21,841 nucleotides of DNA, from positions 1-21,841 of IMG/VR virus record IMGVR_UViG_3300017750_000140, one strand, 5' to 3'. Every line of letters begins with the position of its first letter. The first letter of the stretch is position 1. Positions 1 to 21,086 of the stretch are shown here, in pieces. This DNA is from a virus. The position numbers and the translations under genes are program-made. The notes beneath the pieces are model-generated. The model had not been told where the DNA came from, searched no databases, and worked only from the letters and a program-made list of their open reading frames with translations.

Positions 1-674
1 AAGAATATTTTACCCACGACACCGAATTAGCTATCGGTGAGTATTTAGCTTCCGATCATGAAGCAACTCGAAATAAAATATTTAACGACCGTATAAATTA
101 TTCGTTTTATAAATTAGCTGAAAATCTTATTCATACCTTTAAATTTTACTACACAGAAGTTGAATCGTTAGAAGATTTAAAACACGAAGTTGTTTGTTTT
201 CTTTTAGAAAAACTCCATTATTTTGATCCAACTAAAGGTTCTAAAGCATTTAGTTATTTTTCAATTGTAGGTAAAAATTACCTTATTCTTTATAACAATA
301 CAAATTATAAGAAGAAAAAAATTAAAGCAGACGTGTTGGCAGCTGATGAAGATGATAAAGTAATTCACGAACTTGGACGTCCTGAACGTAAAGAAGACAT
401 GAAAGATTTTATAGACTATTTTACAGCATACATAGATAAACATATGTTTAGGTTATTTAAAAAAGACCACGATAGAAAAGTGTGTGATGCTGTTAATATT
501 TTATTTAAACGTAGAGAAAATTTAGAGATTTTTAATAAAAAGGCCCTTTACATTTACATTCGTGAAATCACAAACGTAGACACTCCAGTAATTACTAAAG
601 TAACTAAAGTACTTAAGAAAAAATACCACGAATTGTATTCTGAATACGACAGAACAGGATATGTAAGAGTTTAA
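1..674 (+). CDS. 55: Late-transcription sigma factor, T4 gp55-like (5' partial)
   Basis: The frame is open from base 3 to a TAA at 672-674, giving 223 visible residues, and the true start lies before the window. A GTG at 333 could serve as a start but would cut off the most conserved part, so I reject it. Visible residues 74-92 (FDPTKGSKAFSYFSIVGKN) look like sigma region 2, the stretch that binds RNA polymerase and melts the -10 element, and compare with the FD..K..NP.AY.T segment of T4-type gp55. A lysine-rich patch (YKKKKIKADV) follows. In T4, gp55 joins host core polymerase with gp33 and the clamp gp45 to read late promoters. T4 gp55 is about 185 residues, so this one is longer. Placement just before the structural cluster fits late control. 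It could instead be another small phage sigma-70-like factor; the role is inferred from the region 2 pattern. Confidence 0.68.
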   Translation, partial: EYFTHDTELAIGEYLASDHEATRNKIFNDRINYSFYKLAENLIHTFKFYYTEVESLEDLKHEVVCFLLEKLHYFDPTKGSKAFSYFSIVGKNYLILYNNTNYKKKKIKADVLAADEDDKVIHELGRPERKEDMKDFIDYFTAYIDKHMFRLFKKDHDRKVCDAVNILFKRRENLEIFNKKALYIYIREITNVDTPVITKVTKVLKKKYHELYSEYDRTGYVRV

Positions 675-680
675 AAAATC

Positions 681-702
681 TATATTTATAACAAAATACA
701 AT
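681..702 (+). promoter_or_regulatory. Candidate late promoter / start element, copy 1
   Basis: This 22-base element in the 28-base gap before the 703 gene reads TATATTTAT followed by AACAAAATACAAT and touches the ATG. It matches the element at 14761-14782 at 21 of 22 positions and the one at 4107-4128 at 18 of 22 without gaps. All three lie immediately before a start that follows a real gap. If the TATA-like part is a -10 box, the transcript would begin at or a few bases before the ATG. The promoter role is inferred from position and recurrence; a translation-initiation signal is the alternative. Confidence 0.5.
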
Positions 703-1056
703 ATGGATTCATTAAATCAAGTAATATTTGACGATAAAACCTTTTCTGATCTCCTTAAAGAGATTCACGTTAATCAAAAGAAAAAAGGTAAACAAATTGG
801 TCAACTCATAGCTGAGTTAAGGCCCCTTATTCAAAATTTAGGAGATGCCACTGTTGTTGTTCCATTAATTAAAGAATATATGGAAATCAGTGTTAAAAAC
901 GACGACCATCTTCTAAAAATGGCAGCTATAGTACAACGTTTATCTACAGGTAACGCAACTGGTGGTGGTGGAGACATGTTAACTGAAGAAGAAATGAATC
1001 AACTTCAAAATATTGTAGAAGAAACAGAAAAAGGGAAAGATGTCAACAACTCTTAA
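703..1056 (+). CDS. Small helical protein of unknown function
   Basis: I do not recognise this 117-residue protein. It is almost entirely predicted alpha-helix: residues 10-45 are charged (DDKTFSDLLKEIHVNQKKK and onward), residues 46-82 contain a VVVPLIKEYMEISVKNDDHLL segment, then come a Gly-rich hinge at 85-90 (ATGGGG) and an acidic helix at 92-110. It has no signal peptide, membrane segment or cysteine. The start is supported by the promoter-like element ending at 702. The end overlaps the spike gene by 17 bases, so the two are probably translated together. A chaperone-like or accessory virion role next to the spike gene is possible but only guessed from position. Confidence 0.75.
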   Translation: MDSLNQVIFDDKTFSDLLKEIHVNQKKKGKQIGQLIAELRPLIQNLGDATVVVPLIKEYMEISVKNDDHLLKMAAIVQRLSTGNATGGGGDMLTEEEMNQLQNIVEETEKGKDVNNS

Positions 1057-2833
1057 AAAAAATATTAAAAAACTTATTGAGGGCACAGGACAAAAACTTA
1101 CTGCCGTTAGAGTTATTGATATAATTTTAGATATTAATCATCCAAAAGCTATTGAATTTGGTGGGTATGATTCTATAGGAACTATTTTTTATACTATTTT
1201 AGAAAATAATACCCCTTTAGAAGAGGTTAGTAGTGCTAATATTGCACGACCAATGTCTTCTAATATAAAACATTACCCTTTAAAAAATGAAATTGTTTTA
1301 ATTATATCATCTAAAGATAAAGATATATATAATTCTAAAGGATCCTCAACAGCTTATTATTTTTCTACATTAAATATATGGAATCATCCACATCATAATG
1401 CTCTACCTTCAGTTAAGGGACTTAAAAATACCCCAACAGAACAAGATTATGAAAAAACTGAAGCAGGTATAGTAAGAAAAGTTACAGATGAGGGTACAGA
1501 CATTAATTTAGGTAAATATTTTAGTGAAGCATTAAATATTAAACCCTTATTACCTTATGAAGGGGATTATATTATAGAAGGTAGATTTGGCAATTCTATA
1601 AGATTAGGATCTACTAATATAGGGGAGGATATACCAGATGAAAATAATAATAATTGGAGTAATATAGGTAATACAGGAGATCCCATCACTATTATACGAA
1701 ATGGTCAATCAAATGATTTAGATAATAAAGGATGGGTACACACAGTAGAAAATATAAATGATGATTTAACGTCTTTATACTTAACTTCAAATCAACAACT
1801 ATCTAATTTTAGAGTAGCATCTACTAATTTTCAATCATATCAAGCAAAATTAGTACTACCTGAAGACTTAGAAACTACTTTAACTGATCCCCAATTAAAT
1901 ATTATGGTTGAACCTGAATTACCTGTAAAAGATCCACTAGAAACAACACCTACAATTTCTACCCCTCCTTCAGACCCCCCTATTTTATCCTCTCCCCCAG
2001 TTATAGAAGAGGAAGAAGGAGAACAATCACCCTTTGATTTATTTATGACAGATCCTGAAAACTTCTCTATACAAGAAATAGAAGGCGAAACAGAAGACCA
2101 AACAATTACCCCTACATCAACAGAAAAATCGAATCCAAATAATGTAGAAACTGACACAACGGGACCTATAGATAATGTAGAAAAAGTAGGAAAATATTTT
2201 TCTTTAGAAAAATGCTTTACTTCCGAAATAGCACGTACTGGTATTAAAGATGGAGAATATGTGTTAGCGAATGGGGAATTATTAAGTCCCCGAATTGAAG
2301 TTGATGTTTATATAGATGCCATAAAAAGAGGAGGAAAATCATTTAAAAGTGTCGGATGTAATAATTTACCTGGTATAGATGGTTATGCTAGTAAAGAAAC
2401 TATAATTAATAATCTTAAAGCTTTATTTGAAAATGTAGTTGATAAAATATATGAAAAATATCCTAATATGGAAATAAATTCAGCTTATAGAACTAAATTA
2501 TTAAATGATGCTGTAGGATCTAACGATAATTCAAATCATCTATATGGTCAAGCTATTGATATTAAAGTACCAGGTGTAAGAACATCTGAAATATTTAATT
2601 GGATTGTAGGGGGTGGTATACCTGATTGGCATCAAGTAATTTGGGAATATCCAGAAAATGGAGAAAGAAGTTGGGTCCATATAGCATATATGAAAAGTGG
2701 AAATAAGAAGAAACGTACACTAGCAACATCAAATTCTAAATTAAAAGAATGGAACAAAGCAGGTAACGAAACCTATTCTAATATGATAACAGCAGGAAAT
2801 TTAACAGCAGACCAATCTAAAGTATTATCATAA
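1040..2833 (+). CDS. Baseplate spike / hub protein with OB-like domain and C-terminal M15 zinc peptidase
   Basis: 597 residues in three parts. Residues about 20-245 resemble the N-terminal OB domain of T4-type gp5 spike proteins as found in marine phages: IGTIFYTIL, then ARPMSSNIKHYPLKNEIVLI, then IEGRFGNSIRLGSTN and GDPITIIRNGQ. Residues about 270-378 are a low-complexity Pro/Glu/Thr linker. Residues about 400-575 are a peptidase M15-type domain: SNHLYGQAIDI at 498-508 carries the first Zn ligands (His500, Asp507), IWEY the probable catalytic Glu, and WVHIAY at 545-550 the third ligand (His547). M15 enzymes cut peptide crosslinks of peptidoglycan. The expected role is the cell-puncturing spike that opens the cell wall during injection, standing where T4 gp5 has a lysozyme. 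The ATG at 1040 lies inside the previous gene after AGGGAAAG, the only weak SD-like sequence I saw. The stop overlaps the next ATG (TAATGA). Confidence 0.8.
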   Translation: MSTTLKKNIKKLIEGTGQKLTAVRVIDIILDINHPKAIEFGGYDSIGTIFYTILENNTPLEEVSSANIARPMSSNIKHYPLKNEIVLIISSKDKDIYNSKGSSTAYYFSTLNIWNHPHHNALPSVKGLKNTPTEQDYEKTEAGIVRKVTDEGTDINLGKYFSEALNIKPLLPYEGDYIIEGRFGNSIRLGSTNIGEDIPDENNNNWSNIGNTGDPITIIRNGQSNDLDNKGWVHTVENINDDLTSLYLTSNQQLSNFRVASTNFQSYQAKLVLPEDLETTLTDPQLNIMVEPELPVKDPLETTPTISTPPSDPPILSSPPVIEEEEGEQSPFDLFMTDPENFSIQEIEGETEDQTITPTSTEKSNPNNVETDTTGPIDNVEKVGKYFSLEKCFTSEIARTGIKDGEYVLANGELLSPRIEVDVYIDAIKRGGKSFKSVGCNNLPGIDGYASKETIINNLKALFENVVDKIYEKYPNMEINSAYRTKLLNDAVGSNDNSNHLYGQAIDIKVPGVRTSEIFNWIVGGGIPDWHQVIWEYPENGERSWVHIAYMKSGNKKKRTLATSNSKLKEWNKAGNETYSNMITAGNLTADQSKVLS

Positions 2834-3300
2834 TGAGTTACATACCCGAACAACCAAATATATATCAAGGTAAACAAGCAATAATAAATTCAGACAGAAT
2901 TTTATTTAATGCTAAGGAAGATTCTATCCTTTTATTTTCAAATAAAGCTATAGGATTTAGTACTAATGGTAATTTTCATTTTGACACTGGAAATAATGAA
3001 GAAAATAAATTCATAGTAAATGCTCCTAATATTTATTTAGGATTACAAGACAATGGAAATTACCCTATAGATTCTGCTTTATTAGGCGATAAAACTGAAG
3101 AATGGTTAATAGAATTATTAGATATGATAGAAGGATTAATGAATGATGTTAAATATAAAGTAGCATACACCGCAGGTAAAGAAGGAAAAACTAAACCTCA
3201 TCCTGACAATGAATCTATGTTATCTTTAAGATACCAACAAATTGAAAGATTAAAAACTGACATAAAAGATATAAAAAGTAAACGTATAAAAGTAGTATAA
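2833..3300 (+). CDS. Small beta-repeat protein, candidate spike tip
   Basis: 155 residues. Residues about 14-72 alternate short beta-like strands: IINSDRILFNA, SILLFSNKAIGFSTNG, FHFDT, FIVNAPNIYLG. This is the kind of repeat seen in the C-terminal beta-helix of gp5/VgrG-type spikes. A short motif ALLGDKTEEWLIELLDMIE (82-100) follows, similar to the helix that closes such regions in phage spike proteins, and the tail is helical and basic. The gene overlaps the peptidase-bearing spike gene by one base (TAATG) and the next gene by one base, so all three should be translated in a coupled way. I infer that it supplies the beta-helical shaft or tip which the upstream spike protein lacks. This is a pattern judgement, not a recognised family; a small baseplate plug protein is the alternative. 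Confidence 0.6.
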   Translation: MSYIPEQPNIYQGKQAIINSDRILFNAKEDSILLFSNKAIGFSTNGNFHFDTGNNEENKFIVNAPNIYLGLQDNGNYPIDSALLGDKTEEWLIELLDMIEGLMNDVKYKVAYTAGKEGKTKPHPDNESMLSLRYQQIERLKTDIKDIKSKRIKVV

Positions 3301-4100
3301 TGGCAGTAGAAGCTATAAGAAATTTATTAAACCAAAGTGATAAAGCTATTTTTGATGTAAAAAATAAGCTTAAGGAAGAAAAAGACAAGGGTATTTCTAA
3401 GGTAAAAGAACAACTTCCTACTCAAGAAGAAATCACATCACAAGTTAAATCAAATGTTTGTAGTACTGAAACCGCAGGCGCTATAGATAAAAATTTTAAT
3501 AATCTTAAAGATAAAGTAAATGGTATAAAAGGTAAATTAGAAGGGGGAATTAAAAAACTACAAGCTTTGAAAGCAAAACTAGATAAAATCACAGAATGGA
3601 TGGAAAAAATAAGTAAACTTTTAGTAGCTTTAAAATCAATAATATTAATATGTGATATAATTGTTAAAGTATTACCTAAAGCTTTAAATTTTCTCACAGG
3701 ATTATTAGCTAATGGTTTTGCTATTAAAAAACTATCAGACTTAATAGATAAAGCTAAATCAAAAGTTGAAAATTTTAAAGCTTCAATAACCTCCTTTACG
3801 AAAGCAGTATTAAGTATCACAGCTGCCGCCTCTATTCCGGGCCTCCTTATAGATGCAGCTATTGCAGCTTTACAAAAAATTATTAATTTTATATCATCAC
3901 TTATGAGTATCTTAGAACAATTATATTTAGGATATTTAGCCCAATGTAATTTACCATCAGACCCACCTATTAATTCAGATGGTAGTCTTAATTTAGGTTT
4001 AATCATAGACGGATTAGAACAAAACGAAAAAACAGAAATTATAGAAAAAATTTATAACGCTAATTTTGAAACAATAGGATATAGACGTTATAAAGCTTAA
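3300..4100 (+). CDS. Coiled-coil protein with long hydrophobic helices, probable tail/baseplate component
   Basis: 266 residues, not assigned to a family. Residues 1-100 are Lys/Glu-rich and heptad-like (NLLNQSDKAIFDVKNKLKEE, then DKVNGIKGKLEGGIKKLQAL), consistent with a coiled coil. Residues about 103-145 contain LLVALKSIILICDIIVKVL and FLTGLLANGFAI, and residues about 168-215 contain LSITAAASIPGLLIDAAIAA and IINFISSLMSILEQLYLGYL, two strongly hydrophobic helical stretches. Coiled coil plus hydrophobic helices recalls tape-measure proteins or membrane-inserting tail proteins, but 266 residues is far too short for a normal myovirus tape measure. It sits between the spike genes and the wedge gene gp25, so a role at the tail tip or in membrane passage is reasonable but inferred. 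The start overlaps the previous stop (TAATG). Confidence 0.7.
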   Translation: MAVEAIRNLLNQSDKAIFDVKNKLKEEKDKGISKVKEQLPTQEEITSQVKSNVCSTETAGAIDKNFNNLKDKVNGIKGKLEGGIKKLQALKAKLDKITEWMEKISKLLVALKSIILICDIIVKVLPKALNFLTGLLANGFAIKKLSDLIDKAKSKVENFKASITSFTKAVLSITAAASIPGLLIDAAIAALQKIINFISSLMSILEQLYLGYLAQCNLPSDPPINSDGSLNLGLIIDGLEQNEKTEIIEKIYNANFETIGYRRYKA

Positions 4101-4106
4101 TTTAAT

Positions 4107-4128
4107 TATATTTATTAACAAACACAAT
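4107..4128 (+). promoter_or_regulatory. Candidate late promoter / start element, copy 2
   Basis: In the 32-base gap before the 4133 gene, TATATTTATT is followed by AACAAACACAAT. It matches the 681-702 element at 18 of 22 positions without gaps, and better if a one-base gap is allowed within the TATA part. It lies 4 bases before the ATG and there is no Shine-Dalgarno sequence. The recurrence at a transcription-unit boundary suggests a promoter for the gp25-gp6 wedge block. Confidence 0.42.
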
Positions 4129-4132
4129 TATT

Positions 4133-4522
4133 ATGAAGGCAAGCGCTTTTGAAAATTTATTTAGAAAAGTCGTAAGAGAAGAAATAGATTATGCTCTTCG
4201 ACGTGAAATTAAAACACTTAAGGAAGACTTACGTGACGAATTAAAACCTACAATTATAGAACAACAAGTACAACGTACACCAGTACCACAAAATGTACAA
4301 ACTTCTTTAAAAGAAAAAATTATGGGCAATTCCCCCGCTCAAAGTTTTACCTCTAATGGAGCCTTAAATGATTTATTAAATGAAACAGCTCAAGGAAGTA
4401 CAAATCTTGAATCAACATTAACTCCAGAAGCCCCAATACCCACCGAAGTTTCAAATGTAGTAAATAGAGATTATCGTGAATTAATGAGAGCAATAGATAA
4501 AAAGAAAAATAGCAGACCTTAA
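4133..4522 (+). CDS. Small helical protein, probable baseplate accessory
   Basis: 129 residues, not recognised. Residues 4-40 form one charged helix (AFENLFRKVVREEIDYALRR, then EIKTLKEDLRDELK), likely a coiled coil. Residues 45-100 are polar, Gln/Pro/Thr-rich and probably disordered. The end (YRELMRAIDKKKNSRP) is basic and helical. The layout of an oligomerising helix plus a flexible tail resembles small adaptor or chaperone proteins. It is the first gene after the second promoter-like element and overlaps the gp25-like start (TAATG), so its product is probably made in step with gp25. Confidence 0.7.
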   Translation: MKASAFENLFRKVVREEIDYALRREIKTLKEDLRDELKPTIIEQQVQRTPVPQNVQTSLKEKIMGNSPAQSFTSNGALNDLLNETAQGSTNLESTLTPEAPIPTEVSNVVNRDYRELMRAIDKKKNSRP

Positions 4523-4929
4523 TGGCAATTATTAATAAAAATAGAAGAATTAACCCATTAGACATTAATCAAGATGTTACTATAGGGGTTCGTTTTCCTC
4601 TTAATAATGTTAATATATTTAAAGGTACAACCACAGTTAAAGAACAAGTTAAAAGTAACTTAATTAATTTATTATTAACTGAACAAGGTGAACGTGTAAA
4701 CGAACCTGATTTTGGTGTTGGGTTAAAAAGATTATTATTTGAACAAAATATTAACAAAGAAAAATTAGAAGAAAAAATTAATTTCCAAATTGGTTTTTAC
4801 ATACCTGAAATTACTTTAATGTCAGTTTCAGTAGGTTCTATAGATGATGAAAATAAAGTATATTTAACAATATCATATAGATTTAATTTGGATGGAGCAA
4901 CAGATGCTCTAACCACAACATTTGAATAA
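4522..4929 (+). CDS. 25: Baseplate wedge subunit, T4 gp25-like
   Basis: 135 residues, the usual size of the GPW/gp25 family. Residues 20-68 carry the family signature: GVRFPLNNVNIFKGTTTVKE, then LINLLLTEQGERVNEPDFGVGL, with the Glu-Pro pair (61-62) at the place of the conserved EPR motif (here EPD). gp25 is homologous to type VI secretion TssE. It joins the wedge to the central hub and helps start sheath assembly. The C-terminal half (INFQIGFYIPEITLMSVSVG) continues the fold. The gene overlaps its upstream neighbour and the gp6-like gene by one base at each side, and the gp25-gp6 pairing is standard in myoviruses. Confidence 0.92.
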   Translation: MAIINKNRRINPLDINQDVTIGVRFPLNNVNIFKGTTTVKEQVKSNLINLLLTEQGERVNEPDFGVGLKRLLFEQNINKEKLEEKINFQIGFYIPEITLMSVSVGSIDDENKVYLTISYRFNLDGATDALTTTFE

Positions 4930-6818
4930 TGGCATATAGTAAAGTATCAAATAAAACACAAGATAAAGATGTAAAATATCTTAATAAGGATTTTAATTCT
5001 TACAAAAATCAGTTAATGGAATTTGCGGAAGTTTACTTTCCTAATAGTTTTAATGATTTTAGTGAAGGTAATCCAGGAATGATGTTTCTTGAAATGGCCG
5101 CTTACGTTGGTGACGTTTTATCATTTTACACTGACACCCAATTACGTGAATCATTTTTAACTTTAGCCCAAGAAAAGGAAAATCTGTATAATTTAGCTTA
5201 TGCTATGGGTTACAAACCTAAGGCAACCTCAGCTGCATCTGTTGATTTAGAAATATTTCAATTAGTTCCTTCTTTACCAAATAATGATTTTAAACCAGAT
5301 TTTAATTACGCATTAAAAATAGATGAAAATTCATCATTTAAATCTACTGAAGGTTCTATATTTTACATAAGTAACCAAGTTGATTTTAGTTATTCAAGTT
5401 CATTCTCCCCCACAGATGTAAGTATATATCAATATAATGATAATAATGACCCCGAATATTACTTACTTAAAAAATCTACTCAGGCAATTTCAGGTGAGAG
5501 AAAAACCCAAACATTTACTGTAGGTTCAGCTGAACAATTTAAAACACTAACATTATTTGATGGAAGTATTATATCAATTGAATCAGTAGTTGATAGTGAA
5601 GGAAATAATTGGTCTGAAGTTCCTTATTTAGCACAAGATACAATTTTTGAAGAAATTGAAAACACAGGTGCAAATGATCCTGAATTAAATCAATATAATC
5701 AACAAACACCTTATCTTTTAAAATTAAAAAGAGCATCAAGACGATTTGTATCTAGATTTAAAGCTAATAATGAATTAGAAATACAATTTGGAGCGGGTAC
5801 AAGTGATAAAGCCGATGAAGAAATTATCCCTAACCCAGATAATATAGGTTTGGGGATTAAAGATGGAAGGTCATCATTAAACCAAGCTTATGATCCATCT
5901 AATTTTTTATATACTAAGGCATATGGACAAGTACCTGCCAATACTACATTAACAGTAACATATTTAGTAGGAGGAGGTTTAAATGCTAATGTAAATTCAA
6001 ATACAATCACTAAAGTTGAAACTTTATTTCCCGTCAATAAACCCAACTTAAATCCATCAATATTAAAATTTATTCAATCATCAGTAGCTTCTACAAATAA
6101 AGAAGCAGCAAAGGGTGGGGGAGCAGGTGATTCAGTAGAAGATATTAGACTAAATACAATGGCTAATTTTTCTGCACAACAAAGAGCAGTAACAAAAGAA
6201 GATTATTTAATAAGAACTTTATCTCTACCTCCTAAATTAGGTAGAGTAGCAAAAGCTTACATAATACAAGATGATCAATCTTCACCATTACTAACATCAC
6301 CAGAACGTATACCTAATCCATTAGCATTAAATTTATACACTTTAGGATATAATTCATCTAAACAACTAACAACACTAAATACAGCTACTAAAACAAATTT
6401 AGCGACGTATTTAGAACAATATAGAATGTTAACAGATGCTATTAATATTAAAGATGCATTTGTAATTAATTTTGGATTAGATTTTGAAATTACAGCTTTT
6501 AAAAGTTATAATAATCAAGAAGTAATACTCCAATGTATAACTGAACTGAAAAATTACTTTAACGTAGACAGATGGCAAGTTAATCAACCTATTATTATAT
6601 CGGAGATATCTAATTTATTAGCGGGTGTTACTGGTGTACAAACGGTTGAAAAAGTAACATTAGAAAATAAAAATGGGGTATCTTTAGGATATTCACAGTA
6701 TAAATATGATTTTGAAGGTGCCACAAGAAAAGGCGTAATATACCCTTCATTAGACCCAAGTATTTTTGAATTAAAATACCCAAACACAGATATTAAAGGA
6801 CGCGTAACAACATACTAA
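4929..6818 (+). CDS. 6: Baseplate wedge subunit, T4 gp6-like
   Basis: 629 residues, close to T4 gp6 (660). The N-terminal part at residues 18-98 is typical of gp6: DFNSYKNQLMEFAEVYFPNS, then GNPGMMFLEMAAYVGDVLSF, YTDTQLRESFLTLAQEKENL and YNLAYAMGYKPK. Around residues 408-425 comes the Baseplate_J-like stretch NFSAQQRAVTKEDYLIRTL. gp6 dimers tie neighbouring wedges into the continuous ring of the baseplate and, with gp7 and gp53, make the wedge core. It directly follows gp25 with a one-base overlap (TAATG) and is followed by the next gene after a single base. Confidence 0.9.
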   Translation: MAYSKVSNKTQDKDVKYLNKDFNSYKNQLMEFAEVYFPNSFNDFSEGNPGMMFLEMAAYVGDVLSFYTDTQLRESFLTLAQEKENLYNLAYAMGYKPKATSAASVDLEIFQLVPSLPNNDFKPDFNYALKIDENSSFKSTEGSIFYISNQVDFSYSSSFSPTDVSIYQYNDNNDPEYYLLKKSTQAISGERKTQTFTVGSAEQFKTLTLFDGSIISIESVVDSEGNNWSEVPYLAQDTIFEEIENTGANDPELNQYNQQTPYLLKLKRASRRFVSRFKANNELEIQFGAGTSDKADEEIIPNPDNIGLGIKDGRSSLNQAYDPSNFLYTKAYGQVPANTTLTVTYLVGGGLNANVNSNTITKVETLFPVNKPNLNPSILKFIQSSVASTNKEAAKGGGAGDSVEDIRLNTMANFSAQQRAVTKEDYLIRTLSLPPKLGRVAKAYIIQDDQSSPLLTSPERIPNPLALNLYTLGYNSSKQLTTLNTATKTNLATYLEQYRMLTDAINIKDAFVINFGLDFEITAFKSYNNQEVILQCITELKNYFNVDRWQVNQPIIISEISNLLAGVTGVQTVEKVTLENKNGVSLGYSQYKYDFEGATRKGVIYPSLDPSIFELKYPNTDIKGRVTTY

Positions 6819-6819
6819 A

Positions 6820-7977
6820 ATGGCATACTACTCTATATTCCCCGAAAAAACATCAACAATATATAGTCACCCTGATAGACTTGAATTAAATACGGGTAAT
6901 GATGAAATTATTGAACTAATAAAGGAAAAAGGAAATTCAGGATCTGATTATTATCCATCAAGAGTTTTAATTCAATTTAAGGATGAAGATATAAATAAGG
7001 CATATAATATATTTAAATTAAATCCTAATTATATAGATAATGACACAGAAGCCTCATTAATATTACCCGCTTTCTTAGAATTATTTTCCACAGAACATCA
7101 AAATTTAGGACAACTCCAAGAATTAGAAATATTCCCACTATCCCAATCATGGAATGCAGGTACAGGAAAATACTCGGACAAACCCCAAACCTCAAATGGA
7201 TGTACTTGGAAATATTCAGATAACTCAATTCGTACTACAAATTGGTCTACAGAATTTAATAACTATTCTACGGGATCTATAGAAAGTGAAATAATTAAAG
7301 CGGGTGGGGGTACATGGTACACCTCCTTCCCCGGTAGATTTGACAATGTTTTATATACCCAATCATTCAACAATGTAGACATATTAGACATAAATGTAGA
7401 TATAAAGAATCAAGCTTATTATTGGAATAATGGAACAATAGAAAATAATGGACTTATTATTAAATATAATAATAATATAGAAACATACACACCTAGTAGT
7501 GTAGGTAACTTACAATTTTTTTCTGTTAATACTCACACAATCTACCCCCCTAAATTAACTTTTAAATGGGATGATAGTGTACATTATTCCCAGTCAATAG
7601 CTAAAACTAAGGGGGAATTAAATGTTTCTTTATATAGAAATAAAAAAGAATACAATCAAAATGATGAAGCCATAATTAGGTTACATGTAAGAGACAAATA
7701 TCCTACACGACAATTTACATCCTCATCTAATTACTTAAACCCCGGATATTTTACAACCTCCTCTTTTTATAGTATTAGAGATGCCCACACAGAGGAAGAA
7801 ATTATCCCGTTTGATAATGATTACACTAAATTAAGTGCTGATGATGAAGGAATGTATTTTAAATTATATATAAAAAGCTTACAACCCGAAAGATATTATC
7901 GTATTTTATTTAAACATACAAATAATGATGGTACTGAAATTTATGATAATAATTACCACTTTAAAGTAGTTAGATAA
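6820..7977 (+). CDS. Virion protein with DNRLRE-like beta domain
   Basis: 385 residues. Residues about 1-230 fit the pattern of DNRLRE-type domains, beta modules of extracellular and virion proteins: SRVLIQF (47-53), SLILPAFLELF (79-89), LEIFPLSQSWNAGTGKY (102-118), CTWKYSD (128-134), then DILDINVDIKNQAYYWNNGT and IENNGLIIKYNN. Residues about 255-385 form a second, Ig-like beta region ending SLQPERYYRILFKHTNND and FKVVR. It lies in the wedge block after gp6 and is coupled to the next gene by TAATG, so it is probably a baseplate or fibre-attachment protein, perhaps in the position that gp8 or gp10 hold in T4. The DNRLRE match is by eye and moderate. Confidence 0.62.
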   Translation: MAYYSIFPEKTSTIYSHPDRLELNTGNDEIIELIKEKGNSGSDYYPSRVLIQFKDEDINKAYNIFKLNPNYIDNDTEASLILPAFLELFSTEHQNLGQLQELEIFPLSQSWNAGTGKYSDKPQTSNGCTWKYSDNSIRTTNWSTEFNNYSTGSIESEIIKAGGGTWYTSFPGRFDNVLYTQSFNNVDILDINVDIKNQAYYWNNGTIENNGLIIKYNNNIETYTPSSVGNLQFFSVNTHTIYPPKLTFKWDDSVHYSQSIAKTKGELNVSLYRNKKEYNQNDEAIIRLHVRDKYPTRQFTSSSNYLNPGYFTTSSFYSIRDAHTEEEIIPFDNDYTKLSADDEGMYFKLYIKSLQPERYYRILFKHTNNDGTEIYDNNYHFKVVR

Positions 7978-9134
7978 TGGCACAAGAAAGAATAAAATTA
8001 ACTAAAAAAGTTTATGATAAACAATCAGCCAGTGATTTATTAAATAGATCATTTTCTGAATTAGCTAATTCTAATGATTCTGTAACTAATACTAATTTAA
8101 ATAATAAAATTAATCAACTTTTTACACTATACAATGATTTATTTTATGATGTCCCTAAAATAGGAAAAAAATCACATACTTCATTTTTTCAACAAAGTAG
8201 AGATTATTTAGGTAATTATATTGATAGTAAAGACACAGAAATAGATGCTTTAATAGAAAGAATAATTGAATTAGAAGAAAAACTTAACACCTCAGAAACA
8301 CCTGATAAGGAACACCCTTTCTACAGAAATGGATCTATAATAGTAGACAGAGAAGCCGATTGGAATATATATTATATGGAAAAGGCAACTAGACGTAAAC
8401 TTGAAGGAGACACAAAATCTGAATTATTTATAGATTTACTAGCAGCCTTAGGACATAGGGGAACATGGACGGAGGGAGTCACATTAGTATCCCCCTCAGT
8501 TATTTCTAATATCCCCCCAGGTCCAAGATTTGGTCCTGAAGATTTAGGATCAGCCGAAACTAATGTTGAAGAAGAAACAGCAACATTTGCAGATTCATTT
8601 AATTACAATGCTTTACAAGATGGCGAACTTAATCCTAACAATTACCCAATCACAGAAATGACAAGACCATCAAATTATAGCTCTATGGCAGTACAAAATC
8701 GACAAAGAGTAGATAATGAAATATATCAAGTTGGTGTCGCTAATAAGAATAGTTATGATACATATCGTGAATATCTAAAAAATAGAATTACGGAAACTTG
8801 GTCAACTGAAAGACGCTTAGATGTTTTATCAGATAAATATAGAAATGATATAGAATATAGTTTTACCCAACCTGAAAGAGATAAAGCTCAAATATTATTA
8901 GATAATTTAGGACCTGTATTAAGAAGATCCCAAGAAACTTTAGTATATTATAAAAGATTATGGACTTTTGTTAAAAATAAAAGTGCTAATAATGCACAGG
9001 CTAAAAAATTAATGCTAGAAGCACAAGCTAATTTTGAAAATAATATAAATACTCCTGTTGCTGATAATGAAAGAAATGAATATGGTGGGTGGAAAAAAGG
9101 TAAAGATAACTTTCAAAATATAGATCTTAACTAA
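7977..9134 (+). CDS. Helical virion protein of unknown function in the wedge block
   Basis: 385 residues, no family recognised. Residues 1-105 are helical (LTKKVYDKQSASDLLNRSFS, then ALIERIIELEEKLNTSE). Residues about 115-150 contain DREADWNIYYMEKATRRKLE. The middle (about 165-245) is Pro/Gly-rich and probably extended (VSPSVISNIPPGPRFGPEDL). Residues about 250-375 return to charged helices (AQILLDNLGPVLRRSQETLV, AQAKKLMLEAQANFENNINT). There are no signal or membrane segments. TAATG overlaps on both sides place it firmly in the baseplate operon between the DNRLRE-like protein and the giant wedge protein, so a structural or assembly role is likely. Confidence 0.65.
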   Translation: MAQERIKLTKKVYDKQSASDLLNRSFSELANSNDSVTNTNLNNKINQLFTLYNDLFYDVPKIGKKSHTSFFQQSRDYLGNYIDSKDTEIDALIERIIELEEKLNTSETPDKEHPFYRNGSIIVDREADWNIYYMEKATRRKLEGDTKSELFIDLLAALGHRGTWTEGVTLVSPSVISNIPPGPRFGPEDLGSAETNVEEETATFADSFNYNALQDGELNPNNYPITEMTRPSNYSSMAVQNRQRVDNEIYQVGVANKNSYDTYREYLKNRITETWSTERRLDVLSDKYRNDIEYSFTQPERDKAQILLDNLGPVLRRSQETLVYYKRLWTFVKNKSANNAQAKKLMLEAQANFENNINTPVADNERNEYGGWKKGKDNFQNIDLN

Positions 9135-12100
9135 TGGCAAAAAATCAAGTAGACATATCAACTAACGAACGACTCCAATTAAATGGAGATTCTATTAATT
9201 CAGGTACTATAGATAGAAAATTTGGTAGACCAGAAGATTTTATTGAGTTACATATCTATAATCAAAGTGATCAACTATTATCATCTGATTATAATTTTAC
9301 TAAATATAAATTTCCTGAGGGAACTACTGAAAATGAAGTTTCTGAACTAAATATGGATCCTGTTGATATTTTAAGATTAAAAGGATACACTTCGGGTCAA
9401 TATAAATTAATATTTAATATACAAAGATCTAAAATATTTAATACTTCTACTTTACCCTTTTCTGTAAAAGAAATTTCATCTACAAGAAGAGAACTTAAAT
9501 CAGTTACCCCTAAATTAACTAATAACCAATTAGATCCTGAAGTTTCTCGTTTTATAAGAGAAATAGAAGTAGCCCCCTATTTAAAAGATTTTGTTCTTAA
9601 TTTTAAAAATAATATTAATGTAGTAGGAGTAAACATAGCATTAAATAAGAGTACAAATAAACATGAAATATTACTTAAACTAATAGACCCTTTACCCCCT
9701 AATATAAACATAACAGATGCCTTTAAAATAGTAGAAGAGATTACAGACCCTATTATTTTAAATGTAGATTTAGGTTTAGAAACTAGCGAAGATGAAGGTA
9801 TACCTCTTCAAGGACCTAACTTTAAAATAGATGTTAGATTAAATAATAGTGTTCCCTCAAGTTTTAAAAATTATGATGAAGTGTTAGATTATAGTTTAAC
9901 ATCATCTTATCATAATCTTCTAAATCATTTAGAAAATAGAGAAATACCAGACATATCTTATGATTTTATAAGAACAGTTTCGGGTAGTAATGAAGGGGAT
10001 CCTTTAGAAGAAGTTTATCATTTTGAAAACTTTACCCATTTTAGTAGTGCGGTTGAACGTTTAAAAAACTTTGAATATAAAATCCAACTTATAGAATTAT
10101 ATAATTCCCAAACAACAGACATAAATAATATAACAGGAGACACTGCTAATTCAACTTATGTTTTAGAAAATAAAGAAGCAATTAATGTAAAAAAACAAAA
10201 TCTTATTAAAGGTTTTGATGGGTATGAACGTTTTTTATACTATACTTCAGGTACATTTGCTTGGCCTAAACAAGAGTCAACATCCCCTTACACTCTATAC
10301 TCAGTAACTTCACCTGAAGTTAAAACATGGTTAGGAGATGAAAGGGATAGTTTTCCTAATTATGGGGGTCAATTATTGTCAGCTTCCCAATTTGACAGAC
10401 AAAATGAAAATGCATTAACAAGATTAGTTCCTAATCATATAATGGACAATCCAGACAATTCATTTTACTCCTCATTTGTAAATATGGTTGGTCAACATTT
10501 TGATCAAATTTGGGTTCATATAAAACATTTAACAGAAGTTAATGACGCACATCATTCAAGAGGTATTTCAAAAGAATTAGTTTATTTTTCCTTAAAAAGT
10601 TTAGGATTAGAAACATTTGATCAATTTGAAAATTCAAATTTAATTGAATATATTTTAGGTGAAGGTACAGAAGGTAGTGTACTTTATGATACACCTACTA
10701 ATCAAACATTAGTAACTGCATCAAATGCAGGATCAATTCCCAAAGGTGATATTACTAAAAATATATGGAAACGTTTATACCATAATGCACCCTACTTATT
10801 AAAAACCAAAGGTACTGAACGCGGTCTTAGAGCGCTCATGAGTTGTTATGGTATTCCATCTACCATACTTAACGTTAAAGAATATGGTGGTTCTACGTCG
10901 GATAAAACCACATACAAAACATTTACAAATGATAAGGGAAGTTTAGTTTTAAAAGGAGATTCAGGTATAAATGGGTATTTTATAAAAACCCCTTGGAATA
11001 CTTCTTTAACCCACCCTTTATCTGCATCAGCTAAAACAGTTGAATTTAGAATTAAACCTCATAGATCAGATGAAAATTACCATTTATTTAGTTTATCAGG
11101 AAGTTATTTAGAGGCACAACATTTAATATTAGAACCATCCTCATCAGGTACTGATGTATCATCATCAGGAGACGCTAATCAATATGGAAGGTTAAAATAT
11201 ATAAAAGAAATTGATGAAAATCAACAACAAATAACAACAACTGAATACTTCCCCGCTTACAATGGAGATTTTTGGAATATATTTGTAGGAACTGAAATTA
11301 AAGATCCCGATAGTATCACAGATAATGGTGCATCAACTTATACTCCCATAACTTTTGGTGCTTACCAAGCAAATCATTTAAAAAATTGTAATTATGTTAA
11401 TGTAACTACAAATAATGATATGGGTCCCTTTAGTAATAATATTAATTCTACTTTTAATGTAGCTACAACTTGGGGATTAGAATATTTAGGTAGTACTAAT
11501 GTAACTCGTTTAGGAGCCCATTCTGCTTTTATAGGGGGATTTCCCTCAGGTCCCTCAATAGATGAAGTTGATAGACTACGTTATTCAGGATCACTTCAAG
11601 AAGTAAGATACTACTTTGGTGAATTACTTTCACACGAAACTCTTAAAAAACATGCCCTTGAACCTTTTATGTATGCAGGTAACACAGTTTCATCATCATA
11701 TGAAAATTTAATTTTAAGATTACCTTTAGGAAGTAATGATAAAAGAGACAGTGGAAGTTTTCATCCTAACTTTAATGTAGATTATTTAGGAGAGGCAACT
11801 AGTAATATGACTACCCAAACATGGGAAGAAGTTGTTGAAGAACATTATATACCAACCCCTGACACAGTAGGAATTTCAACTACAAGTGAAAAAACAAGAA
11901 TAGACATTGGTACAATAGATGACGATTGGCTGTCACCAACAAGAAAAACTGAAACATCAACATTAGACAATCAACCACCTGACTATGAAGATTTAGGAGT
12001 ATTTTTCTCGCCTACAAATGAATTAAATGAAGACATAATTTACACTTTAGGTGCATTTAGGTTGGATGATTACATTGGTTCACCATTACCTGACCAACAA

Positions 12101-12655
12101 AAAGCTTCCACATATAAAGATTTATCTACTATAAAAGACATTTACTTTAAAAAAGTAGAACGACGATACAACTATTGGGATTACATTAAATTAATTCAAT
12201 ACATTGACCATACACTATTTAAATTGGTAGAACAATGGGTCCCAATGAAAGCCAATTTAAAGACTGGATTATTAATTGAACCACATTATTTAGAAAGAAC
12301 TAAATTTGCAAGAGAATTACCTTCAATTGACCAAGGTCAAAGTATGGTAAATGGTTCATACAATACAATTAATTCAGAAATTGAACCAAATAGGCGATTT
12401 AATTTGGATGGTTCATCAGTGATTGTTACTAACAACTTGTCAGACACTACAGGTAGTAAAGGACAAAGATTAGAACAAGGAACAAACACAACAATTAATC
12501 TTAATGATTACATAATAGAAATAGCAAGAGAAGCTTCTCAAGCACCAGTAGGTAGAACATCATCAACACTTTTAGGAAATGCAACTAAAGGAAAAACATC
12601 TAGTAGGTATTATAGAAAGCGATCAGCAGATACTAATAAAGAAACAGAATATTAA
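9134..12655 (+). CDS. Giant baseplate wedge protein with LamG-like module, gp7-like in position
   Basis: 1173 residues, the longest gene here and close to T4 gp7 (about 1030). Residues 1-420 look like a series of beta domains. Residues about 440-575 are more conserved in feel: SFVNMVGQHFDQIWVHIKHL, ISKELVYFSLKSLGLETFDQ, then RLYHNAPYLLKTKGTERGLR and ALMSCYGIPS at 547-576, a pattern like the LLKTKGT..GL....YGI motif of wedge and P2 gpI-type tail proteins. Residues about 615-845 resemble a LamG/concanavalin fold: AKTVEFRIKPHRSDENYHLF to YSGSLQEVRYYFGELLSHET. Residues about 1000-1080 include ERRYNYWDYIKLIQYIDHTL and WVPMKANLKTGLLIEPHYLE, shared with large phage wedge proteins. I infer the wedge initiator role from size, position after gp6 and the gpI-like motif. 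Confidence 0.65.
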   Translation: MAKNQVDISTNERLQLNGDSINSGTIDRKFGRPEDFIELHIYNQSDQLLSSDYNFTKYKFPEGTTENEVSELNMDPVDILRLKGYTSGQYKLIFNIQRSKIFNTSTLPFSVKEISSTRRELKSVTPKLTNNQLDPEVSRFIREIEVAPYLKDFVLNFKNNINVVGVNIALNKSTNKHEILLKLIDPLPPNINITDAFKIVEEITDPIILNVDLGLETSEDEGIPLQGPNFKIDVRLNNSVPSSFKNYDEVLDYSLTSSYHNLLNHLENREIPDISYDFIRTVSGSNEGDPLEEVYHFENFTHFSSAVERLKNFEYKIQLIELYNSQTTDINNITGDTANSTYVLENKEAINVKKQNLIKGFDGYERFLYYTSGTFAWPKQESTSPYTLYSVTSPEVKTWLGDERDSFPNYGGQLLSASQFDRQNENALTRLVPNHIMDNPDNSFYSSFVNMVGQHFDQIWVHIKHLTEVNDAHHSRGISKELVYFSLKSLGLETFDQFENSNLIEYILGEGTEGSVLYDTPTNQTLVTASNAGSIPKGDITKNIWKRLYHNAPYLLKTKGTERGLRALMSCYGIPSTILNVKEYGGSTSDKTTYKTFTNDKGSLVLKGDSGINGYFIKTPWNTSLTHPLSASAKTVEFRIKPHRSDENYHLFSLSGSYLEAQHLILEPSSSGTDVSSSGDANQYGRLKYIKEIDENQQQITTTEYFPAYNGDFWNIFVGTEIKDPDSITDNGASTYTPITFGAYQANHLKNCNYVNVTTNNDMGPFSNNINSTFNVATTWGLEYLGSTNVTRLGAHSAFIGGFPSGPSIDEVDRLRYSGSLQEVRYYFGELLSHETLKKHALEPFMYAGNTVSSSYENLILRLPLGSNDKRDSGSFHPNFNVDYLGEATSNMTTQTWEEVVEEHYIPTPDTVGISTTSEKTRIDIGTIDDDWLSPTRKTETSTLDNQPPDYEDLGVFFSPTNELNEDIIYTLGAFRLDDYIGSPLPDQQKASTYKDLSTIKDIYFKKVERRYNYWDYIKLIQYIDHTLFKLVEQWVPMKANLKTGLLIEPHYLERTKFARELPSIDQGQSMVNGSYNTINSEIEPNRRFNLDGSSVIVTNNLSDTTGSKGQRLEQGTNTTINLNDYIIEIAREASQAPVGRTSSTLLGNATKGKTSSRYYRKRSADTNKETEY

Positions 12656-12657
12656 TT

Positions 12658-13956
12658 ATGGGTTATACACAATTAACATTAGACTATAATAAAGTAACAG
12701 CTACTAAGGATTCTGATGGGAGTACAATTTCTACTGATACAGATCGTGGTTTAGACCAATTATTTAATGGAGAGATAGTTGCCCCTAATATAACAGAGTT
12801 ATTAAATGCAGACGCTGCTTTTACTTTAGAATATGATTTTGGTGCAAATAATAAACAATATATTGGTGATATTCGCATACGATTTGGGGCCCCCCGACCT
12901 ACAGCATATACTATTCAAGTATCTGAAAATGGTACTGATTATGTTACAATTCACACTGTATCATCTCCATCACAAGATGCATATTTAAGAATTTATGGAG
13001 GGGGTAGTGAACCTGGTTTACAAAATTTAACTTCTCCCAAAAAATACCAAAAGTGGAAATTCAATTTCACTGGGTTTACTGATACTAATCAAGTAGTAAT
13101 TAGATTAATAAATGTTTACATAATACCCTCTACAGATCTTACATATAAAGACTACAACGTAGAATTTGACGATGCACTTTTAGACTTAGAAGGATGGAAA
13201 AATCCTCGTTATGAAGGTTCTAAATTAACAGGAGTAAGAATAAATCAATTTAACCAAGGTGACATTTCTTATGGTTTAAATCCAGTAATAGAAAGAAAAA
13301 CAGCATGTATATTTTTAGGAAAAGACATAGATGAAGGAATAGCTAATGACCAAGATATACCTCTAGCTGAAATAATAAACCATAGCTATCTTACTATAAA
13401 TAAAATTTTATTCATAGACTTAGATTCGGATGAAGTAGAAATTGTTTCTCGAGAAAATATGAGTTCTACTGCTTTTAATAGAATTATATCTGATAATTTT
13501 CCTGAAGGTTCAACCACAATAGTAAAGTCATTAGAAGAACAAGCAGACAAATTAAAAACCCAACACACCGTAAAATTCAATAGAGGCCAACTAATGAAAA
13601 TATATTCATATGTTGCTAATGAAGAGGGATATGAAGATGGTGTATTTGGAGGACATGAAGTTTGGGAACATAAAGGAACCAATCAACCTGTTTTAAGTGG
13701 ATCTGGATTATTTGGATATGGCCAAACAGCAGCAGATTCACAATCATTATTTAATACTAATTCCCTTTTATTTACTACTTTATTACCTTCAGAATTAAAT
13801 TTCTATGAAGGAAATTATAGTACAGCAACAATGGGAAGTACATTAACTAATATCACAGCTTCAATTTCAGGCTCAAGCACATCAGGTTTTTCAATTTGGG
13901 ATGGTGAAAATGAGGCAGTAGAAATAGACCCAATAGAAGAATCAGGGGGTAACTAA
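12658..13956 (+). CDS. Virion protein with N-terminal discoidin-like (F5/8 type C) domain
   Basis: 432 residues. Residues about 45-165 have the strands of a galactose-binding-like jelly roll: FTLEYDFGANNKQYIGDIRI, then YTIQVSENGTDYVTIHTVSS, KYQKWKFNFTGFTDTNQVVI and RLINVYI, the usual arrangement of F5/8 type C domains that bind glycans. Residues about 215-350 contain DIPLAEIINHSYLTINKILF and KFNRGQLMKIYSYVANEEGY, not recognised. The C-terminus is Ser/Thr/Gly-rich (TASISGSSTSGFSIWDGENE). The start lies 2 bases after the giant gene's stop. It is probably an adhesin or fibre-attachment protein on the baseplate. Confidence 0.6.
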   Translation: MGYTQLTLDYNKVTATKDSDGSTISTDTDRGLDQLFNGEIVAPNITELLNADAAFTLEYDFGANNKQYIGDIRIRFGAPRPTAYTIQVSENGTDYVTIHTVSSPSQDAYLRIYGGGSEPGLQNLTSPKKYQKWKFNFTGFTDTNQVVIRLINVYIIPSTDLTYKDYNVEFDDALLDLEGWKNPRYEGSKLTGVRINQFNQGDISYGLNPVIERKTACIFLGKDIDEGIANDQDIPLAEIINHSYLTINKILFIDLDSDEVEIVSRENMSSTAFNRIISDNFPEGSTTIVKSLEEQADKLKTQHTVKFNRGQLMKIYSYVANEEGYEDGVFGGHEVWEHKGTNQPVLSGSGLFGYGQTAADSQSLFNTNSLLFTTLLPSELNFYEGNYSTATMGSTLTNITASISGSSTSGFSIWDGENEAVEIDPIEESGGN

Positions 13957-13975
13957 TACTTAAAATTAAAAATAT

Positions 13976-14743
13976 ATGCCAAAAGGATCTCAAACACCAT
14001 TAGACATTACCTCTAAACAACCAATAAATTTAGCTATTGGAACAAGCGCAGCAGGTGCTAATACATTTATATCAAGTTTAGCAACATCAAGTTTAAAAGG
14101 ATTTTATGATGATGTAGTATATTGGGAAATTGCAAAAAATACTAATAAATTTTTTGTTACTTTTGAAAGGGGTCAATATGCTGTTCAAAATGGTAAACAA
14201 GAATCTATTGGAACAATGGAACTTCATTACCCTCGTGTAGACAATAATTCAGGTAGTGGTTTTTTAAATTCTGCAAGTTTAGGAGGTTCTAGAGAAAATG
14301 CTCCCTATAACTCATTCTTCCAAGAAGATGAAGAAACTAGTGTATCTAACCAACAACATCATGGGTATAATGGTTTTATCCCTATTACAGAAATTAGGGG
14401 TACTAGATATTGGCAAACAACTTTAACAAGTTCAATTTCAAAACCATACACATTAAATTATGAAGTTAGTACCTCTGCACAAATTACAAAAACAAGAAAT
14501 ATAACAGCTTCATATTTTTACCCCTTTTCAAATTATCAATTGTCTGTATTAAGAAATAGTCCTACTATAATAATTGATTTAGACAAAGCTAGTGAATTAC
14601 CCAGTTATGCTGCCGAAAAAGGATTTGCTGCTATACCTTTTCAAACACATCAAAAAGTTAAAGATAATTTTGAATATTATCTAGAAAAAGCGGGATTATT
14701 AAATAAAACAACAAAAACAAAAATGCCTAAAAAGGGAATATAA
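13976..14743 (+). CDS. Virion structural protein, unknown family
   Basis: 255 residues. The composition is beta-rich and Ser/Thr/Asn-rich with no membrane segment: YDDVVYWEIAKNTNKFFVTF, then ERGQYAVQNGKQESIGTMEL, TRYWQTTLTSSISKPYTLNY and EVSTSAQITKTRNITASYFY. The C-terminal 40 residues are helical and basic, ending KTKMPKKGI. The ATG at 13976 follows an A/T-only leader of 19 bases and no SD sequence. It is the last gene before the third promoter-like element. I cannot name the family; context puts it among baseplate or fibre proteins. Confidence 0.65.
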   Translation: MPKGSQTPLDITSKQPINLAIGTSAAGANTFISSLATSSLKGFYDDVVYWEIAKNTNKFFVTFERGQYAVQNGKQESIGTMELHYPRVDNNSGSGFLNSASLGGSRENAPYNSFFQEDEETSVSNQQHHGYNGFIPITEIRGTRYWQTTLTSSISKPYTLNYEVSTSAQITKTRNITASYFYPFSNYQLSVLRNSPTIIIDLDKASELPSYAAEKGFAAIPFQTHQKVKDNFEYYLEKAGLLNKTTKTKMPKKGI

Positions 14744-14758
14744 TATTTTTTAAATAAT

Positions 14759-14782
14759 TATATATATATAACAAAATACAAT
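14759..14782 (+). promoter_or_regulatory. Candidate late promoter / start element, copy 3, with (TA)6 tract
   Basis: The 43-base gap before 14787 has only A and T up to base 14771, then AACAAAATACAAT. Bases 14761-14782 match 681-702 at 21 of 22 positions, the single difference making the TATA part a pure TA repeat (six TA units at 14759-14770). The spacer to the ATG is 4 bases. Two near-identical copies 14 kb apart, each right before a gene start, are hard to explain by base composition alone. The promoter role is inferred. Confidence 0.5.
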
Positions 14783-14786
14783 TACA

Positions 14787-15476
14787 ATGGGATACTTAGA
14801 CAACAGTTCAATTACCGTAGATGCAATCTTAACAAAAAGGGGCCGCGAATTATTAGCTCGAAATGATGGCTCTTTTAATATTACACAATTTGCATTAGGT
14901 GATGATGAAATTGATTATACATTATTTAATGAAAACCATCCAAATGGTTCTCAATATTCAGGTGAAGCAATTGAAAACATGCCTCTATTAGAAGCATTTC
15001 CTGATGAAAGTAATATTATGATCCATAAGTTAATTACTTTACCTAGAGGAACTTCTAAATTACCTATTATATCAGCTAATGTTTCTAAAATTACTCTTAC
15101 TATTGGTTCAAGTTACACTTTATCCCCAACAACTATGAACTTAAATGGTCTAGTAAATCAATCAGAAACAAGTGGCTATTCAGCGACAATCGCAGATAGA
15201 AGATTATTAGCAGCCTTCCAATCAGCAGGAGGCGGCACAAGTGCAACTCAAAGACCATACACATCAGTAGCAGTTAGTGAAACCATATTAGGTAGTAGTT
15301 TTAACTTAACAGCAATTAATAGTACCTCATTATTTGGTACAAACACAAAATTATTAACAACCATCACTATTGAAGGTAGAGATTCAGGAGCTAGGATTAC
15401 TGTTCCCTTAGAAATTTCTAAAGAAGTTATAGCTAATAAAGCTACAAGAGGTGAAACAGGTATAACATTAAGATAA
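14787..15476 (+). CDS. Virion structural protein with conserved GYLDNS...TKRGRELLAR N-terminus
   Basis: 229 residues. The N-terminus MGYLDNSSITVDAILTKRGR, followed by ELLARNDGSFNITQFALGDD, is a pattern I associate with structural proteins of T4-like phages from marine samples, but I cannot give it a T4 gene name. Residues about 95-225 are beta-rich (ANVSKITLTIGSSYTLSPTT, then TKLLTTITIEGRDSGARITV). Residues 150-160 (SAGGGTSATQR) form a Gly/Ser loop. It begins a new run of genes after the third promoter-like element, with the next gene 6 bases downstream. The number of copies per virion, and hence whether it is a major structural protein, cannot be seen from sequence. Confidence 0.68.
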   Translation: MGYLDNSSITVDAILTKRGRELLARNDGSFNITQFALGDDEIDYTLFNENHPNGSQYSGEAIENMPLLEAFPDESNIMIHKLITLPRGTSKLPIISANVSKITLTIGSSYTLSPTTMNLNGLVNQSETSGYSATIADRRLLAAFQSAGGGTSATQRPYTSVAVSETILGSSFNLTAINSTSLFGTNTKLLTTITIEGRDSGARITVPLEISKEVIANKATRGETGITLR

Positions 15477-18920: not shown

Positions 18921-18942
18921 TATGTATAATAAAATAATTATC
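18921..18942 (+). promoter_or_regulatory. Weak variant of the promoter-like element
   Basis: The 27-base gap before the fibre gene contains TATGTATAATAAAATAATTA. It keeps the TAT..TAT part and the A-run of the element at 681-702 but loses the ACAAT end. The fibre gene has no other visible start signal. In such AT-rich sequence this match may be chance. Confidence 0.2.
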
Positions 18943-20626: not shown

Positions 20627-21064
20627 ATGAAATGGTTATATAATAAAAAAGAAATTAATGATATAGCCGACCTCCCTGAAGGAGCGTTCGGCTTTATCTA
20701 TCAAACAACCCACACACCTACAGGTAAAAAATACATTGGTAAAAAATCCCTAATGTACAATTTAAAGAAAAAATTAGGTAAAAAAGAAAAGGCCCTTTGG
20801 GAAGGTAAAGGCCGTCCACCAATTTTTAAACGTGTATTAAAAGAAAGCGATTGGAAAACATACCACGGTTCACATGCATTTATAAAAGACTGTGTAAATG
20901 AATCACCAGACGACCTTACACGTGAAATTATCCACATTGCATATCACAAAAAAGAATTAACATACCTTGAATGTAAATATCAATTTAGTTTAGGTGTGTT
21001 AGAAGACAAAAAATATCTAAACGACAACATTCTCGGAAAATTTTTCGATAGAGACTTTGATTAG
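20627..21064 (+). CDS. GIY-YIG-like endonuclease
   Basis: 145 residues. Residues 22-25 (GFIY) and 35-38 (KYIG) are the two halves of the GIY-YIG motif, with a PTGKK turn between as is common in phage versions. Later come W76, a Y..GS motif at 79-82 (YHGS), LTREIIHIAYHKKELTYLEC with Glu115 as the candidate metal-binding residue, and KYQF. Enzymes of this fold cut DNA. Free-standing versions occur widely in T4-like phages as homing endonucleases or as nucleases of unknown role; nothing here shows an intron. It lies 11 bases after the fibre gene, ends with the only TAG stop in the window, and marks the change from structural to replication genes. A GC-rich hairpin sits in codons 13-23. Confidence 0.72.
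   Translation: MKWLYNKKEINDIADLPEGAFGFIYQTTHTPTGKKYIGKKSLMYNLKKKLGKKEKALWEGKGRPPIFKRVLKESDWKTYHGSHAFIKDCVNESPDDLTREIIHIAYHKKELTYLECKYQFSLGVLEDKKYLNDNILGKFFDRDFD
20665..20693 (+). terminator. GC-rich hairpin inside the nuclease gene, possible attenuator/terminator
   Basis: AGCCGA (20665-20670) pairs with TCGGCT (20688-20693), and inside it CTCC (20672-20675) pairs with GGAG (20681-20684). The stem is followed by TTATCTATC, only a weak T-tract. It is unusually GC-rich for the window and stands 50 bases after the fibre stop. It also encodes a probably conserved stretch (DLPEGAFGF), so the hairpin may be incidental. Confidence 0.25.
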
Positions 21065-21086
21065 CCACTCTTCTTTCGTATATTCA
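21056..21086 (+). promoter_or_regulatory. Candidate Bacteroidota-type promoter before the primase
   Basis: TTTG at 21056-21059, a 19-base spacer and TATATTCA at 21079-21086 approximate the Bacteroidota housekeeping promoter (TTTG, then TAnnTTTG about 19 bases later). The 26-base gap lacks the element seen before late genes, as expected if the primase is transcribed earlier. The last two bases of the -7 box do not match. Confidence 0.22.

Follow-up and report, generated by a model that had tools for sequence, protein, structure and literature searches.

The late genes of phage T4 are transcribed from promoters that consist of an 8-bp -10-like box, TATAAATA, with no conservation at -35, and that are read by the sigma factor gp55 (PMC2988020). 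The divergent T4-like phages S-PM2, KVP40, 44RR and Aeh1 likewise have single boxes before their late genes; that of S-PM2, NATAAATA, and the near-identical boxes of KVP40 and 44RR still end in AAATA, and the only positions at which Aeh1 varies are -13/-12 (PMC2988020, PMC2984593). For the Far-T4 phages, a study that assembled fragments detected no T4 core transcription-regulation genes and left the transcription programme open (PMC4360716). Phages of the Far-T4 type are widespread in fresh water and sea water. The subject here is an element in the 21,841-base virus record IMGVR_UViG_3300017750_000140 (the window, i.e. the whole stretch of DNA analysed), a block of baseplate and tail genes all on the + strand. 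It is highly likely that this element, a box (A)TATTTATA with an A-rich stretch after it, is the late promoter of a T4-like phage, at which a gp55-like sigma reads (A)TATTTATA without a -35 element and from which virion genes are expressed as short-leadered mRNAs. The box thus appears to work like a T4 late promoter with a different core; architecture, gene class and sigma family are the same, but the TATAAATA consensus does not fit, the central AA of T4 being TT here, and none of the four other phages has a TT centre. No paper pairing this box with phage late promoters was found in the library searched, in which subscription journals are mostly uncovered.

The initial annotation had noticed a 22-base element at three gene starts and had suggested that a divergent late promoter, read by a gp55-like sigma encoded nearby, might be responsible. 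Its coordinates and identities are exact; the copy at 681-702 differs at 1 of 22 positions from that at 14761-14782 and at 4 of 22 from that at 4107-4128, and the former two are the sole same-strand pair of 22-mers with at most one mismatch in the window, any such pair arising in 4 of 200 dinucleotide shuffles. The three copies end 0, 4 and 4 bases before the ATGs at 703, 4133 and 14787. As the annotation had also said, they follow larger gaps (28, 32 and 43 nt), are absent at starts of the coupled type (gaps of -17 to 12 nt), and the T4 late box in forward orientation precedes no gene of the window, where TATAAATA is intragenic only (6699, 6990, 9044, 13395 and 17621). Five gaps of at least 26 nt exist in the window, before the genes at 703, 4133, 14787, 18948 and 21091; the annotated element occupies three of these, but the gap before 18948 contains TATGTATAATAAA at 18921, a fourth site that had been missed. 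The repeat itself is real, but the 22-mer is not the unit; this candidate was rejected because only the box is invariant across orthologs, so that the conserved unit is a box of 8-9 bases, with the A-rich leader after it. The resulting features are as follows; ranks refer to the tail-sheath matrix described below.

3..674, + strand: gp55-like late sigma gene, its 5' end cut by the window; adjoins site 1; matches PHROG 234 and the T4 gp55 fold
681..702, + strand: predicted late promoter 1; box TATTTATA at 683-690, then the A-rich leader; ATG at 703, 12 nt past the box; predicted start at about 696; matrix rank 1
4107..4128, + strand: predicted late promoter 2; box TATTTATT at 4109-4116; ATG at 4133, 16 nt past the box; predicted start at about 4122; matrix rank 2
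14761..14782, + strand: predicted late promoter 3; variant box TATATATA at 14763-14770; ATG at 14787, 16 nt past the box; predicted start at about 14776; matrix rank 6
18921..18928, + strand: probable late promoter 4; variant box TATGTATA, followed by ATAAA; ATG at 18948, 19 nt past the box; matrix rank 3

Conservation of the box was followed in 80 IMG/VR loci that share the gp6-like gene of the window. Of 65 distinct upstream regions of orthologs, 59 contain it (19/21 for site 1, 30/33 for site 2 and 10/11 for site 3). Within the aligned rows ATATTTAT is invariant amid drifting DNA, and the box ends 8 to 21 nt before the ATG. At site 3 ten of the 11 ortholog regions carry TATTTATA at the same place; the TATATATATA found at 14761 is a variant specific to the window of the TATATTTATA seen in its orthologs. 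By comparison, none of the 243 regions that precede ten coupled genes on these contigs contains ATATTTATWA. Chance arising from AT-richness is ruled out by these coupled-gene controls, by opposite-strand and same-composition word controls, and by the tail-sheath test that follows. In one further count the control for ATATTTATA carries no information, since this word reads identically in reverse.

The tail-sheath gene is a classic T4 late gene and lies outside the window. If the box is the late promoter of this clade, the sheath genes of other viruses would be expected to carry it, a prediction that was made beforehand. Among 63 distinct, independent upstream regions from an IMG/VR sheath scan, 58 contain ATATTTAT and 43 contain TATTTATA. 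A matrix built from the sheath regions alone places the four window sites at ranks 1, 2, 3 and 6 among some 43,600 positions on both strands, and random placement of gene starts equalled these ranks in 0 of 20,000 trials. The same data bear on the direction of the promoter. TATTTATA is the exact reverse complement of TATAAATA, and the element could therefore be a T4 late box pointing the other way and producing antisense RNA. The orientation is, however, constant toward the downstream gene (ATATTTAT in 58 sheath regions in the sense direction against 0 of 63 on the opposite strand), the flanks are asymmetric, with conserved A's only downstream, and the other strand of the window has no gene to serve; a reversed T4 box is hardly credible.

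The nearest named relatives of the window are Flavobacterium phage immuto (complete, 160 kb), Microcystis phage Mel-JY01 (PP395634, 190 kb) and the uncultured LR756508 (484 kb). In these and in further contigs, among them G001 (161 kb), the 50-60 bases before predicted gene starts were compared with gene bodies in an unguided 8-mer search to which no motif was supplied; starts came from a simple ATG-only gene caller rather than a trained one, and 300 kb of the 484 kb of LR756508 were examined. T4 served as the positive control, and its top word was TATAAATA (21 observed against 0.77 expected), so that the search does detect real late promoters. For immuto the top upstream word is TATTTATA, with 24 observed against 0.31 expected. 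The same word is enriched in G002 (rank 2, 14 against 0.7), Mel-JY01 (rank 4, 13 against 1.0) and G001 (rank 6, 18 against 1.4), and in G014 it ranks 15, behind another AT-rich class around ATAAATAA, a word which stands close before small genes in that contig (12 against 0.16 expected). The annotation had proposed that hits no more common upstream of starts than inside genes would refute it; on complete and partial relatives, the box proves strongly enriched upstream, on the coding strand and mostly before virion genes.

In immuto 26 of the 30 coding-strand copies of TATTTATA are intergenic, gaps making up 6% of the genome. The sites precede the terminase, gp20, sheath, tube, hub and tape-measure genes as well as the orthologs of window genes 703 and 14787. 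The logo shows the 8-base box with A or C before it and no information upstream; a -35 element is absent. Past the box, an A at the fifth base is conserved in 92% of sites. Immuto also has a second class of promoter, TTG-N20-TATATTTAGGTAT (its core also given as TATATTTAG), before small genes of the early region.

This second class is relevant to the most obvious alternative, that the element is an ordinary host sigma-A promoter, readable by the host holoenzyme at any time. Bacteroidota sigma-A promoters have TTTG at -33 and TAnnTTTG at -7, and resemble the box in a T-rich -10 region close to the start of mRNAs lacking a Shine-Dalgarno (SD) sequence (PMC6847099). TATATTTA is one base off TAnnTTTG, with seven of eight positions fitting (PMC6847099), and a third of the immuto sites fall outside the virion blocks, also in its favour. 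But the sigma-A type requires TTG at -33 and G at -5, both of which the late class lacks, and promoters of that very type stand separately before early genes. TTG near -33 is not above background in the box class (7/24, background 43/213) and is present in 17/17 of the host-type class; nor is the TA two bases upstream, which the -7 element requires, conserved in immuto. The two classes are split between gene blocks: of the box class, 16 sites lie in virion blocks and 8 elsewhere, and all 17 sites of the host-type class lie elsewhere (p=9e-6). Finally, the same box is found in G001, whose other promoters are of the form TTGACA-N17-TATATT. A host sigma-A promoter is, on this evidence, improbable.

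Could the element instead be a signal for translation initiation, with the A-rich stretch as the context in which Bacteroidota ribosomes enter and the box as a part of it? The 22-mer is rich in A in its 3' half, SD-like sites are missing from all window genes, and 76% of the window genes have A at -3, as in Flavobacterium (PMC6847099). The 3' half is indeed probably a ribosome entry context. The box, by contrast, lies anywhere from 3 to more than 40 nt from the ATG, coupled genes do without it, and early genes of immuto have leaders with no box. Moreover, in G001, which uses SD sequences, the box is kept further upstream with the SD between it and the ATG, which shows that the transcription signal (the box) and the translation context (the A-rich leader) are separable as the two halves of the 22-mer. 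That the box itself serves translation is very improbable. Its spacing does tend to follow the mode of translation: the median distance from box to ATG is 25.5 nt in T4 and G001, where 56-59% of genes have SD-like sites, and 16.5 nt in immuto and 12 nt in G002, where 3% do; Mel-JY01, with 28%, has a distance of 33 nt.

Two of these genomes call for comment on their hosts. G001 has SD sites in 59% of its genes and TTGACA-N17-TATATT early promoters, and yet has the same late box together with a gp55-like gene; its host probably lies outside the Bacteroidota, and its SD sites and promoters imply that phage lineage, too, matters for the type of box. The recorded host of Mel-JY01 is the cyanobacterium Microcystis elabens, yet TAnnTTTG, a word of the Bacteroidota type, occurs in 17 gaps before its genes and Flavobacterium is the host of its nearest relatives; the host given in the record should be verified.

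The sigma factor expected from the late-promoter reading is encoded in the window, as had been proposed. The product of the gene adjoining site 1 matches PHROG 234, the late sigma (E 7.1e-5), as do 6 of its 18 orthologs; in immuto the gp55-like protein is gp118. Its predicted structure (mean pLDDT 78) is similar to that of T4 gp55 in the promoter open complex (7d7c_F; Z 10.2, rmsd 3.2 over 112 residues); almost all entries in its list of structural matches are sigma factors, and others score similarly to T4 gp55. A search of PDB sequences with the sigma profile gave nothing relevant. Beyond about residue 126 (375-674 of the window) there is an extra helical domain which has no aligned counterpart in T4 gp55 and which contains the most conserved stretch of the family, FNKKALY. 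Taken alone, this C-terminal domain finds its best structural match in the sigma-4 end of SigD, at a middling Z of 6.0. The late sigma might be a one-piece protein, a gp55-like sigma-2 domain joined with a C-terminal domain of the sigma-4/gp33 kind, that reads TATTTATA with no separate gp33 and possibly with no sliding clamp of the phage's own. Given that the C-terminal match reaches only Z 6.0, a fusion of gp55 with gp33, or of sigma-2 with sigma-4, is offered as a doubtful hypothesis. A review of T4 late transcription asks about the absence of a fused late sigma of this kind (PMC2988020), and a one-piece protein here, if real, would be that form.

Several observations weigh against a T4-type late promoter. 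Besides the immuto sites outside virion blocks (8/24), LR756508, which has gp55-, gp6- and gp23-like genes, has neither TATTTATA nor TATAAATA enriched in the 300 kb examined. The box count of G001 partly overlaps sigma-70-like early promoters, and the boxes of sites 3 and 4 in the window each depart from the consensus by one base. The Pfam model for gp33 (PF16805) matched nothing in five relatives, of which two are complete, a negative that for so poorly conserved a family does not amount to absence; the model for gp45 (PF02916) likewise matched nothing in relatives, and this too is not read as absence. Activation by the T4 machinery is accordingly no more than putative here. A clamp loader is matched strongly in Mel-JY01 and not at all in immuto.

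Set against T4, these phages share the 8-bp -10-like box, the lack of a -35 element, the position before virion genes, an encoded sigma of the gp55 family, and a box that is the top upstream word in the identical search. They differ, the core apart, in the A-rich stretch after the box, in a box-to-ATG distance of 12-19 nt in the window against the T4 median of 25.5, in gp33 and gp45 not being found by Pfam in relatives, and in the extra C-terminal domain of the sigma. The most likely mechanism is the following, in which the pairing of sigma and box is drawn from their association. The RNA polymerase of the host, probably a member of the Bacteroidota, would carry the phage gp55-like sigma, and this holoenzyme would recognise the 8-base -10-like box (A)TATTTATA with no -35 element. 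Transcription would start about 6 bases past the box, within the A-rich stretch, as in the geometry of T4 (PMC2988020); a hint of such a start comes only from the A that immuto conserves at the fifth base past the box. The virion gene blocks would be transcribed, presumably late, as short-leadered mRNAs, to be translated without SD sequences with the A-rich leader as the ribosome entry context. The mRNAs would not be leaderless or nearly so in this window, contrary to what the annotation had supposed; with the ATG 12-19 nt beyond the box, the predicted leaders are about 7, 11, 11 and 14 nt.

Rhodothermus phage RM378, an isolated Far-T4 phage, offers a partial parallel. The identical search found TATTTAAA (27 against 0.11), and TATTTAAA-nn-AAAA shares with the present element the TATTTA core, the run of A's after it, the lack of a -35 element and a sigma encoded by the phage itself. 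In contrast, the RM378 box ends in AAA rather than ATA, has a median distance of 8 nt to the ATG and is spread genome-wide, and its sigma is weakly alignable. The RM378 element stands before 27 genes, at exactly 5 nt from the ATG in nine of them, and their mRNAs would be leaderless if the T4 start-site geometry applied. T4-like phages of hosts related to Bacteroidota may commonly have a TT centre, and promoters of the present kind are very probably common to a large group of aquatic T4-related viruses. With a defined late box and a recognisable late sigma, late operons could be annotated directly in hundreds of uncultured genomes and late gene control in this little-studied group becomes testable; box and sigma together would also provide a clean case for asking by what route a gp55-type sigma comes to use another box, and in what way the length of the leader tracks the translation mode of the host.

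In addition to the 5'-cut gp55-like gene, the window encodes an M15-peptidase protein, gp25-like and gp6-like baseplate wedge proteins, large tail proteins, a SegE-type endonuclease and a primase-like protein. The last of the larger gaps contains a single site of another type:

21057..21086, + strand: candidate host-type (Bacteroidota sigma-A) promoter; TTG at 21057-21059, 19 nt, then TATATTCA at 21079-21086; precedes the primase-like gene at 21091

This candidate is of the same type as the early class of immuto. Since TTG-N19-TATATTCA ends 4 nt before the primase-like ATG, the mRNA would be leaderless or would start further in. The SegE-type endonuclease, of the GIY-YIG kind, is encoded at 20627-21064, after the tail genes and ahead of the primase-like gene; in Mel-JY01 the corresponding position is also occupied by a GIY-YIG gene.

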